Shown here: piece by piece, positions 38,065-54,640 of the stretch | Layout of the letters: the number at the start of each line of letters is the position of its first letter | Position numbering within the stretch: position 1 is the first letter of the stretch | Source of the DNA: Pseudomonas putida | Lineage (GTDB): Bacteria > Pseudomonadota > Gammaproteobacteria > Pseudomonadales > Pseudomonadaceae | Length of the DNA: 64,000 bases | Assembly: GCF_028682455.1 (NCBI RefSeq) | Contig: NZ_JANHLD010000003.1 | Coordinates: forward strand, 372,001 to 436,000 | Reading direction: 5' to 3' | The notes under the pieces: generated by a model | What the model was told of the DNA's origin: nothing | Seen by the model: only the letters and a program-made list of their open reading frames with translations | Database searches by the model: none | Program-made: the position numbers and the translations under genes

Positions 38065-39729
38065 CTACAGGGCAACCGACTGCTGCCCCGCCCCGCTCAG
38101 TAAAAAACCCATCAACTCATCGATCGGCAACGGCCGACTGATCAAAAAGCCCTGCACCTGGTCGCAGTCATAGCTGCGCAGCAACGCCATCTGCTCCGCT
38201 GTTTCCACGCCCTCGGCCACCACTTCCAGGTTGAGGTTGTGCGCCAGGTTGATCATGGCGTGCACCAGCTTGCGGTTCTCCTCGCGCAGCTCCATGCCGC
38301 CGACAAAACTGCGATCGACCTTGAGCAAGGTGATCGGCAGGCTATTGAGGTGCACGAACGATGAAAAACCGGTGCCGAAGTCGTCGAGGGAGAAGCGCAC
38401 CCCCAGGCGCCCGAGGGCGTCCATGGTTTGCTTGACCAGGTCATTGCGGCGCATCACCGCGGTTTCGGTCAGCTCGAACTCCAGCCAGCGCGCGTCGACG
38501 CCATGTTCGATGATCAGCCGGCTCAGGGTCGCCAGCAACTGGCTGTCCTGGAATTGGCGAAACGACAGGTTCACCGCCATGTGCAACGGCGCCAGGCCTT
38601 GTTCGCGCAGCGCCTGCATGTCGCGCAGGGCCCGGGAAATCACCCAATAGCCCAAGGGCACGATCAGCCCGCTCTGCTCGGCCAGGGGCACGAACTCGCT
38701 AGGTGGCAGCAAGCCACGTTCGGCATGGCGCCAGCGCACCAATGCCTCCAGGCCGACGATGCGACCGTCGGCCAGGTCCAGGCGTGGCTGGTAATGCAGC
38801 TCCAGTTCGTCCCGGCGCAGGGCGCGGCGCAGCTCGCTCTCCAGGTCGGCAAGGCTGCGGGCATTGCGGTTGATCCGCTCGTTGAAGATATGGAACGTGC
38901 AGCCCTGGGTGCCCTTGGCCTGCTGCATGGCAATGTGCGCATGCCACATCAAGGGGTCGGCACCGCCCTGGGCGCGGGCATGGGCCACGCCCAGGCTGCA
39001 GCCGATCAACAGGCTCTCGCCGTCGACCCAGTAGGGTTCGGCCAGGGCTTCGGTAATGCGTTCGGCCATCCACTCGGCGCGCTGGGGTTCGCGGCGGGTA
39101 TCGATCAACAGGGCAAATTCATCACTGCCCAGGCGTGCAACCTGGTCCCCTGCTTCGAGCTGGCTCTTGAGCCGCCCCACCACCTGCAGGATCAACCGGT
39201 CCCCGGCCTGGTGGCCGAGGGCGTCGTTGGCATGGCGAAAGTTGTCCAGGTCCAGGTGGCCGAGGGCCACGCCTCGTCCTTCGTTGTCGGCCAGCCGCGC
39301 GGCCAGCAAGGTCTGGAAACCCTGGCGGTTGGCGATGCCGGTCAGGGGGTCCTGTTCGGCCAGACGCTGCAAGGTTGCTTCCAGTACACCACGCTCGCGC
39401 ACGTGGCGCAGGCAGCGGCGCAGGGCATCGGCATTCAAGTGATCGAGCACCAGCCAGTCGCTGACGCCAGGCGGCGGCACCTGCGGCTCATGCTCGAGCA
39501 GCAGGACCATCGGCAAGATACAACGCCCTGGGGCCGGCTGCAGCGCCGGGGTGGCCAGCACCACGGCATTGCGATCATTGGCAAACAGGCTGTCGACAGC
39601 GTCCCAGTTTGGTGCGGTCAATATCACCGCACTGCCTGCCAGCGGTACCAGGCAATCGCGCAAGGCCGCGGCCCACTCGGGCTCGTCGGCCAGCAGGAGC
39701 AAACGCAAGGGTTCGACAGGCGTGGACAA
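38065..39729 (-). CDS. GGDEF-EAL c-di-GMP phosphodiesterase (ProE-like)
   Basis: The 554-residue protein is probably cytoplasmic. Residues 1-110 form a receiver-like or divergent sensory region without a clear phosphoacceptor. The GGDEF domain (about 120-285) has GSDEF (201-205) in place of GGDEF, so cyclase activity is doubtful. The EAL domain (about 295-545) keeps EALVRW (328), NLSFRQF, ELTETAVM, LDDFGTGFSSF, LKVDRSFV and EGVET, so it should hydrolyse c-di-GMP. The gene is next to rep, where P. aeruginosa has proE (PA5295). The start is TTG at 39727-39729 with AAGGAG six bases upstream. A Fur box lies 71 bases before the start. Confidence 0.9.
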   Translation of the reverse strand: MSTPVEPLRLLLLADEPEWAAALRDCLVPLAGSAVILTAPNWDAVDSLFANDRNAVVLATPALQPAPGRCILPMVLLLEHEPQVPPPGVSDWLVLDHLNADALRRCLRHVRERGVLEATLQRLAEQDPLTGIANRQGFQTLLAARLADNEGRGVALGHLDLDNFRHANDALGHQAGDRLILQVVGRLKSQLEAGDQVARLGSDEFALLIDTRREPQRAEWMAERITEALAEPYWVDGESLLIGCSLGVAHARAQGGADPLMWHAHIAMQQAKGTQGCTFHIFNERINRNARSLADLESELRRALRRDELELHYQPRLDLADGRIVGLEALVRWRHAERGLLPPSEFVPLAEQSGLIVPLGYWVISRALRDMQALREQGLAPLHMAVNLSFRQFQDSQLLATLSRLIIEHGVDARWLEFELTETAVMRRNDLVKQTMDALGRLGVRFSLDDFGTGFSSFVHLNSLPITLLKVDRSFVGGMELREENRKLVHAMINLAHNLNLEVVAEGVETAEQMALLRSYDCDQVQGFLISRPLPIDELMGFLLSGAGQQSVAL

Positions 39730-39799
39730 GCTGGCTCCTTAGGACGTAGGCACAGTCAAATGACAATGGGCAGCGAGGATGGTCATCCTAAACCATTAG

Positions 39800-39814
39800 T
39801 GAAAATGATTTTCA
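39800..39814. promoter_or_regulatory. Fur box upstream of the c-di-GMP phosphodiesterase gene
   Basis: TGAAAATGATTTTCA matches the 7-1-7 Fur motif TGATAAT-N-ATTATCA at 12 of 14 specified positions and is perfectly symmetrical, extending to a 19-base palindrome (39798-39816). It is 71 bases before the TTG start on the minus strand and about 180 before rep on the plus strand. Confidence 0.7.
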
Positions 39815-39844
39815 CTTGAAGTCATGCCATTCCATTGCCGACAT

Positions 39845-39873
39845 CCCGCAGGTTTCGCCACGCATCCTGCGGG
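39845..39873. repeat. hairpin in the proE-like/rep intergenic region
   Basis: CCCGCAGG/CCTGCGGG with a 13-base loop. There is no T-tract. It lies between the Fur box and the rep promoter region and could insulate the two or be part of an untranslated RNA. Confidence 0.5.
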
Positions 39874-39994
39874 AAAGTATCAAAAGCGGCAAATTTAGAT
39901 CGAGTGGTACGTCACACTGTCAGACGGTCGCGGCAGAATCTTTCTACCCCTGCTAAAATGCGCGGCTATTTTTCTAGCGACCCCGGTTTCTGTC

Positions 39995-42004
39995 ATGTCC
40001 CGACTCAACCCCCGGCAACAAGAAGCCGTGAACTACGTCGGCGGCCCACTATTGGTGCTCGCCGGTGCTGGCTCCGGCAAAACCAGCGTGATTACGCGCA
40101 AGATCGCGCATCTGGTGCAGAACTGCGGCATTCGTGCACAGTACATCGTGGCCATGACCTTCACCAACAAGGCCGCGCGGGAGATGAAAGAGCGGGTCGG
40201 CACCCTGTTGCGCAAGGGCGAAGGGCGCGGCCTGACCGTGTCGACCTTCCACAACCTGGGCCTGAACATTATCCGCAAGGAGCATGAACGGCTGGGCTAC
40301 AAGCCGGGGTTCTCGATCTTCGACGAGACCGACGTCAAGGCCCTGATGACCGACATCATGCAGAAGGAATACTCGGGCGACGACGGCGTCGACGAGATCA
40401 AGAACATGATCGGCGCCTGGAAAAACGACCTGATCCTGCCACCCGAGGCGCTGGAAAAAGCCCGCAATCCCAAGGAACAGACCGCCGCCATTGTCTACGC
40501 CCACTACCAGCGCACGCTCAAGGCGTTCAACGCGGTGGACTTCGACGACCTGATCCTGCTACCGGTAAAGCTGTTCGAAGAGCACACCGACATCCTCGAA
40601 AAGTGGCAGAACAAGGTGCGTTACTTGCTGGTAGACGAATACCAGGACACCAACGCCAGCCAGTACCTGCTGGTGAAGATGCTGATCGGCACGCGCAACC
40701 AGTTCACCGTGGTAGGTGACGACGACCAGTCGATCTACGCCTGGCGCGGTGCGCGCCCCGAAAACCTGATGCTGCTCAAGGACGACTACCCCTCTCTGAA
40801 GGTGGTGATGCTCGAGCAGAACTACCGCTCCACCAGCCGTATCCTGCGCTGCGCCAACGTGCTGATCTCGAACAACCCCCATGCTTTCGAGAAGCAACTG
40901 TGGAGTGAGATGGGCCACGGTGACGAAATCCGTGTGATCCGCTGCAAGAACGAGGAAGCCGAGGCCGAACGCGTGGCCATGGAGATCCTCAGCCTGCACC
41001 TGCGCACCGACCGGCCGTACAGCGACTTCGCCATCCTCTACCGGGGCAACTACCAGGCCAAGCTGATCGAACTGAAGCTGCAGCACCACCAGGTGCCGTA
41101 TCGCCTGTCAGGCGGCAACAGCTTCTTCGGCCGCCAGGAAGTGAAAGACCTGATGGCCTACTTCCGCCTGCTGGTGAACCCGGACGACGACAACGCCTAC
41201 CTGCGGGTGATCAACGTTCCGCGCCGTGAAATCGGCTCGACCACCCTGGAAAAACTCGGCAACTACGCCACCGAACGCAAGATCTCGATGTATGCCGCCA
41301 GCGAAGAGCTGGGCCTGGGCGAGCATCTGGACAGCCGCTACACCGACCGCCTGCAGCGCTTCAAGCGCTGGATGGACGGGGTGCGCGAACAAGTCGCGCT
41401 GGAAGACCCCATTGCCGCCCTGCGCAGCATGGTCATGGATATCGACTACGAGAACTGGATTCGCACCAACAGCTCCAGCGACAAGGCCGCGGACTTTCGC
41501 ATGGGCAACGTCTGGTTCCTGATCGAGGCGTTGAAAAACACCCTGGAGAAGGACGAAGACGGTGGCATGACCATCGAGGAAGCCATCGGCAAGCTGGTGC
41601 TGCGCGACATGCTCGAACGCCAGCAGGAAGAGGAAGACGGTGCCGAGGGTGTGCAGATGATGACCCTGCACGCCTCCAAGGGCCTGGAGTTCCCCTACGT
41701 GTTCATCATGGGCATGGAAGAAGAGATTCTGCCGCACCGTTCCAGTATCGAAGCCGACACCATCGAGGAAGAACGACGCCTGGCCTACGTGGGCATTACC
41801 CGCGCACGCCAGACCCTGGCGTTTACCTATGCCGCCAAGCGCAAGCAGTACGGCGAGATCATCGACTGTGCGCCGAGCCGTTTTCTCGACGAGCTGCCCG
41901 ATGACGACCTGGCCTGGGAAGGCCTGGATGATGCACCGACGGAAGTGAAAGCCGCTCGCGGCAATAATGCACTGGCCGATATCCGCGCCATGCTCAAACG
42001 TTAG
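39995..42004 (+). CDS. rep: ATP-dependent DNA helicase Rep
   Basis: Rep is a 3'-5' superfamily 1A helicase that helps replication forks past protein blocks. It has 669 residues. Motifs are Q-motif LNPRQQEAV, I LAGAGSGKTSV, Ia TFTNKAAREM, II VDEYQDTN, III GDDDQSIYAWRGA, IV LEQNYRS, V MTLHASKGLEFPYV, and VI YVGITRARQTL. Gene order rep then xpt matches other pseudomonads and supports Rep over UvrD. A TAAAAT -10-like box lies at 39954-39959. Confidence 0.96.
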   Translation: MSRLNPRQQEAVNYVGGPLLVLAGAGSGKTSVITRKIAHLVQNCGIRAQYIVAMTFTNKAAREMKERVGTLLRKGEGRGLTVSTFHNLGLNIIRKEHERLGYKPGFSIFDETDVKALMTDIMQKEYSGDDGVDEIKNMIGAWKNDLILPPEALEKARNPKEQTAAIVYAHYQRTLKAFNAVDFDDLILLPVKLFEEHTDILEKWQNKVRYLLVDEYQDTNASQYLLVKMLIGTRNQFTVVGDDDQSIYAWRGARPENLMLLKDDYPSLKVVMLEQNYRSTSRILRCANVLISNNPHAFEKQLWSEMGHGDEIRVIRCKNEEAEAERVAMEILSLHLRTDRPYSDFAILYRGNYQAKLIELKLQHHQVPYRLSGGNSFFGRQEVKDLMAYFRLLVNPDDDNAYLRVINVPRREIGSTTLEKLGNYATERKISMYAASEELGLGEHLDSRYTDRLQRFKRWMDGVREQVALEDPIAALRSMVMDIDYENWIRTNSSSDKAADFRMGNVWFLIEALKNTLEKDEDGGMTIEEAIGKLVLRDMLERQQEEEDGAEGVQMMTLHASKGLEFPYVFIMGMEEEILPHRSSIEADTIEEERRLAYVGITRARQTLAFTYAAKRKQYGEIIDCAPSRFLDELPDDDLAWEGLDDAPTEVKAARGNNALADIRAMLKR

Positions 42005-53083: not shown

Positions 53084-54640
53084 TTGAGAAACCCGCGCGC
53101 GCTGCCCTTGATGCTGTCGCTGATGTTCGGCCTGGGTGGCTGTGCCGCTGTCAGTCAGCCGCGGGAAGTGACGCAGGCGCTGCCCGCCGGCGACTCGGCG
53201 TTCGGACGCTCGGTGCAGCGCCAGGCTTCGGCCTACGAAGGGCGCTCGGGCTTTCGCCTGCTGCCCAACAGCAATGAGGCCTTCCGGGCCCGCGCCGAGC
53301 TGATCCGCAATGCCCAATCGAGCATTGACCTTCAGTACTACATCGTCCATGACGGCCTGAGCACCCGCGCCCTGGTGCATGAGCTGCTGCAGGCGGCCGA
53401 TCGCGGCGTGCGTGTACGCATCCTGCTCGACGACACCACCAGCGATGGCCTCGATGTGCAGATGGCCACCCTCGCCGCCCACCCCAACATCCACATCCGC
53501 GTGTTCAACCCGTTGCGCCTTGGACGCAGCACCGGCGCGACCCGGGCCGTGGGCCGCCTGTTCAATCTCAACCTGCAGCACCGGCGCATGCACAACAAGC
53601 TGTGGCTGGTGGACAACAGCATGGCCATTGTCGGTGGCCGCAACCTGGGCGATGAGTACTTCGATGCCGAGCCCAACCTGAACTTCACCGACATCGACCT
53701 GCTCGGCGTCGGACCTGTGGCCGAGCAACTGGGCCACAGCTTCGACCAGTACTGGAACAGCGCACTGAGCAAACCGATCGGCGACTTTCTCCTGAGCCAA
53801 CCCGATGCCAGCGACCTGCGTGACAGCCGCCAGCGCCTGGAAGCCTACCTTGCCGATGCCAGGATCGAGCGCAAGGCCCTCTACGACCGCTTGATGGCCT
53901 ACCAGACCAACCCGCGCCTGGACGTCTGGCGCAACGAGTTGATCTGGGCCCATAACCAGGCACTCTGGGATGCGCCGAGCAAGGTACTGGCCAGTGACGA
54001 GCCCGACCCGCAGCTGCTGATGACGCAGCAGCTGGCCCCCGAAATGAACGACGTGCAGCATGAGCTGATCTTGATCTCGGCCTACTTCGTTCCCGGCGAG
54101 CCCGGCCTGCTGTACCTGACCAGCCGCGCCGATGCCGGTGTGTCGGTCAAGCTGTTGACCAACTCCCTGGAAGCCACTGATGTGCCGGCGGTTCATGGCG
54201 GCTACGCGCCCTACCGCCGGGCATTGCTGGAGCACGGCGTGCATTTGTACGAGCTGCGCCGCCAACCGGGCGACCCCAGCGCCAACCGGGGTTTGCGCCT
54301 GTATGGCAGCTCCGACTCGAGCTTGCACAGCAAGGCGATCATCTTTGATCGGCGCAAGACCTTCATCGGCTCGTTCAACTTCGACCCACGCTCCGTGCTG
54401 TGGAACACCGAGGTGGGCATTCTGGTCGACAGCCAGGAACTGGCCGAGTACGCCCGCGAGCTGGCGGTGCAAGGTATGGCCCCGGCATTGAGCTACCAGC
54501 CGCAACTGGTGAACGATCAGATCGTGTGGGTCACCGAAGACAACCACCACCTGCACACTCTCACCACCGAGCCCGGTGGGCTGTGGCGGCGCTTCAATGC
54601 CTGGATCAGCAAGGCGGTGGGCCTTGAGCGCATGCTCTAG
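53084..54640 (+). CDS. phospholipase D family lipoprotein (cardiolipin-synthase-like)
   Basis: The 518 residues start with a lipoprotein signal (LSLMFGLGGCAAV, lipobox GLGGC). Two PLD motifs follow: HNKLWLVDNSMAIVGGRN near residue 170 and HSKAIIFDRRKTFIGSFN near residue 410, each H-x-K-x4-D. Layout resembles ClsC/YmdC-type enzymes, which swap phosphatidyl groups, but the lipid anchor suggests a periplasmic or outer-membrane place. The start is TTG at 53084 (TAAGGAC upstream); an in-frame ATG at 53111 is possible. It overlaps the MFS stop by 4 bases. Confidence 0.88.
   Translation: MRNPRALPLMLSLMFGLGGCAAVSQPREVTQALPAGDSAFGRSVQRQASAYEGRSGFRLLPNSNEAFRARAELIRNAQSSIDLQYYIVHDGLSTRALVHELLQAADRGVRVRILLDDTTSDGLDVQMATLAAHPNIHIRVFNPLRLGRSTGATRAVGRLFNLNLQHRRMHNKLWLVDNSMAIVGGRNLGDEYFDAEPNLNFTDIDLLGVGPVAEQLGHSFDQYWNSALSKPIGDFLLSQPDASDLRDSRQRLEAYLADARIERKALYDRLMAYQTNPRLDVWRNELIWAHNQALWDAPSKVLASDEPDPQLLMTQQLAPEMNDVQHELILISAYFVPGEPGLLYLTSRADAGVSVKLLTNSLEATDVPAVHGGYAPYRRALLEHGVHLYELRRQPGDPSANRGLRLYGSSDSSLHSKAIIFDRRKTFIGSFNFDPRSVLWNTEVGILVDSQELAEYARELAVQGMAPALSYQPQLVNDQIVWVTEDNHHLHTLTTEPGGLWRRFNAWISKAVGLERML

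Follow-up and report, generated by a model that had tools for sequence, protein, structure and literature searches.

The predicted leader of a ProE-type c-di-GMP phosphodiesterase gene in the window (the whole 64,000-nucleotide stretch of Pseudomonas putida DNA that was analysed) contains a 21-base near-palindrome that has the sequence character of a Fur box and is kept at the same place above the gene in P. putida-type relatives. That this is a Fur box belonging to the phosphodiesterase gene is well supported, because the site has a high matrix score and a fixed position and because, of the 21 EAL genes scanned, this is the only one with such a site. Taking the sequence evidence together, we consider it probable that the palindrome is a genuine Fur site repressing a proximal promoter of the phosphodiesterase gene, such that iron starvation would raise the enzyme and lower c-di-GMP. 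The initial annotation had proposed Fur control of this gene; the assignment of the box to the gene stands on matrix, position and the 21-gene scan. Two corrections apply: Fur cannot be assumed to cover a sole promoter, and the box is confined to certain lineages and not general among ProE-type genes. The box and its surroundings are as follows.

39797..39817, no strand: predicted Fur box, 21-base near-palindrome TAGTGAAAATGATTTTCACTT, with a 7-1-7 core at 39800-39814
38065..39729, minus strand: predicted ProE-type GGDEF-EAL c-di-GMP phosphodiesterase gene, 554 aa, TTG start; Pfam EAL 1.3e-76, GGDEF 1.4e-31
39735..39742, minus strand: ribosome-binding site CTAAGGAG of the phosphodiesterase gene, read from the sequence and present in most of the leaders printed
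39995..42004, plus strand: rep-type UvrD/REP helicase gene, the divergent neighbour; Pfam UvrD-helicase 7.9e-90, UvrD_C 1.2e-72

The core, TGAAAATGATTTTCA at 39800-39814, agrees with the 7-1-7 pattern of Fur, TGATAATNATTATCA, except at 2 of the 14 specified bases. It forms the middle of a perfect 9-1-9 palindrome spanning 39798-39816, and the 64 kb window contains one more palindrome of this kind; the symmetrical, near-consensus motif with 12 of 14 bases that had been read here is thus confirmed. It lies in an intergenic gap of 265 bases (39730-39994) between the divergent phosphodiesterase and rep-type helicase genes. Spacing from the box to the TTG start of the former (39729, minus strand), which is preceded by an AAGGAG ribosome-binding site, is 70 bases, and the rep-type gene starts with ATG at 39995.

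Judged by its sequence, the product is a ProE-type c-di-GMP phosphodiesterase. As in ProE (PA5295) of P. aeruginosa, a GGDEF domain is followed by an EAL domain and the GGDEF signature is degenerate, reading GSDEF at 201-205 (S202). When we checked 15 positions taken from the accessible text of the ProE paper (PMC7290235), 14 were identical under the same numbering; the exception is position 276, where ProE has R and the protein here has G. The EAL residues E328, R332, N387, E419, D449, D450, K470 and E506 and the loop DDFGTGFSS are all identical to ProE, as are P315, L330 and G527, and the earlier statement that the EAL residues are intact therefore holds at identical residue numbers. On the side of the phosphodiesterase gene away from rep lies a MatE gene; in P. 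aeruginosa PA5295 is flanked by PA5294 and PA5296, which we take to be the MatE and rep genes. The closest named relative, among the best 80 of 538 relatives, is P. vranovensis, whose phosphodiesterase shows 97% protein identity.

To obtain a Fur matrix from the same genome, we searched de novo for a palindromic motif in the sequences preceding all 41 TonB-plug matches; the motif recovered, aAATGatAATnATTatCATTt, is the Fur box consensus. With this genome-derived matrix the site at 39797-39817 scores 21.1 bits and is the best of the window, the next independent site reaching 10.9, and 59.4 Mb of sequence simulated from the dinucleotides of the window contained no site of at least 20 bits, a result that upholds the first reading of the site as Fur-type. 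For a simulated gap-like sequence of 265 bases the probability of reaching at least 21 bits is 0.0003. The site is outside the training set, yet it would rank 7th against the best sites of the 41 training regions, 6 of which hold a higher best site (up to 25.4 bits). The genome encodes a Fur protein (PF01475, E 7.7e-44) and a second, weaker member of the family. When the upstream regions of 21 EAL genes of the genome were scanned (there are 22 EAL matches, a 126-aa fragment being excluded), the phosphodiesterase gene reached 21.1 bits and the 20 others at most 9.3; start codons for this survey were called by a simple rule, and that of one gene, L304, looks doubtful. The box thus has the consensus of Pseudomonas Fur boxes, and its strength is comparable to that of the better boxes at TonB-receptor and ECF sigma genes in the same genome. 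Unlike typical Pseudomonas Fur boxes, whose usual target is iron uptake, it stands before a c-di-GMP phosphodiesterase gene, and it is located downstream of a widespread promoter-like element.

Comparison of the same gap across Pseudomonas drew on three sets of loci. The genus search covered 298 genomes, 296 of them with a match, from which 30 loci and 20 hand-picked ones were read; in the second, 538 relatives were reduced to the best 80, which tilts the gap sample to close relatives; and the third came from 80 hand-chosen weak-match genomes, of which 30 loci and 40 of the other 50 were used. The resulting 200 loci gave 188 gaps in which the phosphodiesterase gene adjoins rep, 4 being cut at a contig end and 8 dropped with a sequence piece too short to find rep. 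Collapsing identical gaps and removing those of 150 nt or less left 173 distinct ones, whose best Fur score is at least 10 bits in 118, at least 14 in 92, at least 16 in 73 and at least 20 in 57. Every site of at least 14 bits lies 45-95 nt above the gene, as do 116 of the 118 sites of at least 10 bits; reversed gaps, used as a control, gave 16 with at least 14 bits and none with at least 18. The cross-genus comparison thus places the box at a constant distance from the phosphodiesterase gene.

The gaps were also aligned by clade. An alignment of 53 distinct putida-type gaps, which include a few fluorescens-like loci such as L020 and L034, places the box among the best conserved stretches, with a mean identity of about 0.93 against 0.69 for the whole gap. 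Since gaps were assigned to the two alignments according to how their best site looked, the conservation is partly selected. In the fluorescens-type counterpart, made from 65 distinct gaps, the box falls outside the 12 best conserved stretches; the core on that side has drifted (AATGAcA..ggTTATCAaA) and the outer bases are kept. The matrix of the sites resembles the Fur matrix with r 0.83 (8 of 5000 column shuffles were as high), and that of the fluorescens type with 0.74 (0 of 5000), a partly circular test, given that this same matrix had served to select the sites. A midpoint-rooted rep tree was built from 124 loci for which 450 bases or more of rep were available, the most divergent 40 contributing none, and it separates two sides at a fork with support 86/96. 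On the putida side (n=48) the box is strong in 42 rows, weak in 4 and missing in 2, and the palindrome is thus present in close relatives, whereas the other side (n=76) has 14 strong, 34 weak and 28 missing boxes. Among the most divergent readable gaps (L222-L261, n=32), 5 score at least 14 bits and 27 score below. The box is therefore limited to certain lineages and decays on the fluorescens side; it is neither genus-wide nor general to ProE-type genes. On the same tree, four loci with titles from other genera, L083, L085 (JAIRVG01, titled Paucimonas), L097 and L109 (titled Pantoea), have a Pseudomonas-type locus and fall among Pseudomonas; these titles look mislabelled, and the Paucimonas bin JAIRVG01 contains two different Pseudomonas loci.

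Conservation around the box points to further elements in the gap.

39864..39892, minus strand: putative distal promoter P1, with -35 TTGCCG at 39892-39887, a 17-nt spacer and -10 CAGGAT at 39869-39864
39785..39790, minus strand: putative -10 TAGGAT of a proximal promoter P2, whose -35 region would lie within the Fur box
39919..39932, no strand: conserved island GTCAGACGGTCGCG, among the best conserved 15-base stretches of the putida-type alignment
39951..39959, plus strand: putative extended -10 (TGC-TAAAAT) of a rep promoter, in or beside the best conserved stretches of both alignments

With one mismatch allowed per hexamer, the pair TTGYCG-17-CAGGAT occurs in 149 of the 173 distinct gaps and is missing in 24, a count that, like those for P2 below, is post hoc because the hexamers were read off the alignments before counting. 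The spacing is 17 in 147 occurrences, and the controls gave the pair in 4.5% of shuffled gaps and in 4 of 173 gaps on the other strand. Its hexamers hold 1.85 and 1.94 bits per position against 1.15 in the spacer, values inflated because the rows were chosen by these hexamers. P1 is thus perhaps a widespread promoter, conceivably the one for housekeeping expression of the phosphodiesterase gene, with a start predicted near 39857. In the two short gaps without a box (L077 and L096), which are probably deletions, the upstream P1-like element is retained. For P2, 52 distinct putida-type leaders were compared: TAGGAT with at most one mismatch lies 8-10 nt past the box in 41 and within the first 22 nt in 42 (6.7% of shuffles match in the same stretch), and fluorescens-type leaders have CATAAT in 60 of 65, against 1.4% in shuffles. 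A TTGGTC-like hexamer is found 17 nt upstream, abutting the box, in 44 of the CATAAT leaders. Although the sequence of this -10 and its distance differ between the two clades, P2 is in both a putative proximal promoter whose -35 region Fur would cover. Since a consensus sigma-70 promoter scan finds nothing at P1 or P2, its one minus-strand match lying at 39996-39968 beside the rep start, both promoters are drawn from conservation.

The presence of a P1-like element upstream of the box places the box inside the predicted leader, and Fur therefore cannot be assumed to cover a sole promoter. This raises an alternative in which Fur binds but serves as a roadblock in the leader, at about +44 to +58 relative to the start predicted for P1, with no separate P2. 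The median position of the box core in 72 gaps, +45 to +59 from the predicted start, agrees with such a role. However, the conserved -10-like hexamers just past the box in both clades suggest that a promoter exists there, and P1 itself is a prediction that the consensus scan misses; we regard a roadblock of this kind as unlikely, and repression of P2 as the better reading of the leader. Three other readings of this stretch were discarded: an 8-bp GC-rich stem at 39845-39873 is not a plausible terminator, its pairing being lost by eye outside close relatives and no T run following it; a sigma-54 reading of the same stretch has, again by eye, the wrong spacing; and the recognition core of RsmA is ANGGA, which the conserved TAGGAT does not fit. 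The island at 39919-39932 precedes the putative rep -10 and may belong to the rep promoter region, or it is a candidate regulator site for rep.

A different outcome is conceivable at the same site: Fur might be an activator or a partner of FleQ, iron in that case raising the phosphodiesterase, or the site might serve another regulator with a similar palindrome. PP_5263 of P. putida KT2440 is, judging by annotation and gene order, presumably the ortholog of the phosphodiesterase gene here. The phosphodiesterase gene would then be a reported FleQ target, for in its accessible text a ChIP-seq study (PMC6120874) reports FleQ peaks for PP_5263/PSF113_5738, a GGDEF/EAL gene under c-di-GMP, as a target common to KT2440 and P. 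fluorescens F113. The main motif under FleQ peaks is there a Fur box, with 44 F113 peaks, a statement made for the peak sets and not for the PP_5263 peak itself; FleQ, not Fur, was precipitated, and we found no iron response of PP_5263/PSF113_5738 in the accessible text (PMC6120874). A second paper, on the c-di-GMP/FleQ transcriptome of P. putida, does not name PP_5263 in its accessible text (PMC8125075). A link between the phosphodiesterase gene and FleQ is possible, and the listing of PP_5263/PSF113_5738 in peak sets whose main motif is the Fur box also counts in favour of Fur control of the gene. On the other hand, nothing in the gap matches the FleQ consensus GTCANTAAATTGAC (after PMC6120874) even when 3 mismatches are allowed, and overlap of the box with promoter-like hexamers would fit repression better than activation. 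As to another regulator, the core of the fluorescens-type palindrome has drifted from the Fur consensus, but the motif fits the genome's own Fur matrix. Activation, joint action with FleQ or a foreign regulator is accordingly improbable in our view.

The initial annotation had also offered an unannotated Fur-controlled transcript in the gap as an alternative, and in a wider form the box would control a plus-strand small RNA or short ORF, or rep, and not the phosphodiesterase. The two divergent genes share the gap, and a Fur-type site also marks a PrrF start in the same genome. We nevertheless find no support for this alternative and hold it to be very improbable: the gap contains no Rfam family (at a lax threshold the only match was to mir-7616, below the cut-off and outside the gap), PrrF in the gap can be set aside with both copies on contigs 1 and 2 and the window on contig 3, and the alignments show by eye no conserved plus-strand -10-like motif beside the box. 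For rep, the putative -10 is about 140 bp from the box, and it is the distance from the box to the phosphodiesterase gene that is kept. A chance or non-functional palindrome is scarcely credible, for although the 15-base pattern with up to 3 mismatches, found once in the window against 0.22 expected, appears at least once in 21 of 100 window shuffles and its count by itself is weak evidence against chance, the matrix score against simulated background and the conservation at a fixed place speak against it.

Repression of a proximal promoter by Fur would work as follows. The phosphodiesterase gene would have a widespread distal promoter, P1; between it and the start codon, the putida and fluorescens lineages would carry a module, made up of the Fur box and P2, that responds to iron. 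When iron is present, Fe-Fur would bind and occlude P2, and it may also hinder polymerase arriving from P1; upon iron starvation Fur would leave the site, the phosphodiesterase would rise and c-di-GMP would fall, with less exopolysaccharide or attachment as the predicted result. With P1 upstream of the box, iron could control the gene fully only if Fur acted as a roadblock or P2 were dominant. ProE is a very active phosphodiesterase in PAO1 and, according to the accessible text of the same paper, affects exopolysaccharide production only; that text also cites work on PA14 in which exopolysaccharide went up and motility went down (PMC7290235). In a PAO1 mutant library, loss of proE caused no major change in biofilm profiles, as far as the accessible text reports (PMC9355167). 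The behavioural effect of the proposed control may thus be small or modest.

Taken further, the conservation pattern would describe a lineage-specific iron switch in the leader of an otherwise constitutive and widespread phosphodiesterase gene, a direct link from Fur to c-di-GMP in the putida and fluorescens groups that other lineages would lack; we see the chances of this broader reading as evenly balanced. If it is true, iron starvation raises ProE, lowers c-di-GMP and favours leaving surfaces in soil and plant pseudomonads, and it would do so in plant-associated pseudomonads where iron competition meets root colonisation. A conserved box before one defined phosphodiesterase offers a simple, testable transcriptional link in these bacteria, and species in which the box has eroded or gone, together with the two box-less short gaps, provide ready strains for comparison. 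Pseudomonas sp. SDI and P. fluorescens HK44 are two strains with no box in the gap.

Fur control of c-di-GMP genes is already known, by the title of a study in Vibrio cholerae (PMC7641913), in which Fur directly regulates the c-di-GMP metabolism genes vieSAB and cdgD; the phosphodiesterase gene here would be a further, well-supported predicted Fur target. The Vibrio case concerns other genes in another genus, and the net effect given in its title is that Fur represses biofilm formation (PMC7641913). In P. aeruginosa iron controls c-di-GMP through IsmP-ImcA, where more iron means more c-di-GMP, the same direction as proposed here (PMC10904736, accessible text); a lowering of c-di-GMP by iron starvation would fit that direction by analogy. 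The means differ, as in IsmP-ImcA the iron-binding protein regulates a cyclase through contact, whereas the proposal here is for transcription of a phosphodiesterase via Fur, and the word Fur is absent from the accessible text of that paper (PMC10904736). A 2026 review links iron regulation to c-di-GMP in a Pseudomonas species, in the portion accessible (PMC13277308). In the open-licence literature, and within the text accessible, we found no tie of PA5295 or PP_5263 to Fur or iron and no Fur-binding or expression evidence for the phosphodiesterase gene. Specifically, GGDEF, EAL, c-di-GMP and diguanylate are absent from the accessible main text of an RNA-seq study of a P. pseudoalcaligenes fur mutant (PMC6922518), 'iron' is absent from that of the ProE paper (PMC7290235), and in the accessible text of PMC11852716 Fur is absent and iron appears in the references only.

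The Fur pattern with at most 2 mismatches occurs at 17 places in the whole genome, against 1 for a backward control. Nine of the 17 score at least 15 bits on the matrix, the remaining eight at most 14.6, and the nine stand at the phosphodiesterase gene, at a PrrF start, and ahead of nuoA, a 134-aa protein (two sites), three ECF sigma genes and one TonB receptor that had contributed to the training set. The nuoA site is a Fur-type box of 25.7 bits (L066:1498-1518; contig 5, core 53592-53606) located 255 nt upstream of the nuoA-type gene (Oxidored_q4). No Rfam family was found at this locus, and the box would point to an unannotated transcript under Fur control, or else Fur would act directly on the nuo operon. 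The two sites before the 134-aa protein are neighbouring Fur boxes of 21.9 and 20.8 bits (L053 and L063; contig 4, 221171-221202). The protein is without a Pfam match, and its gene is likely an iron-starvation gene.
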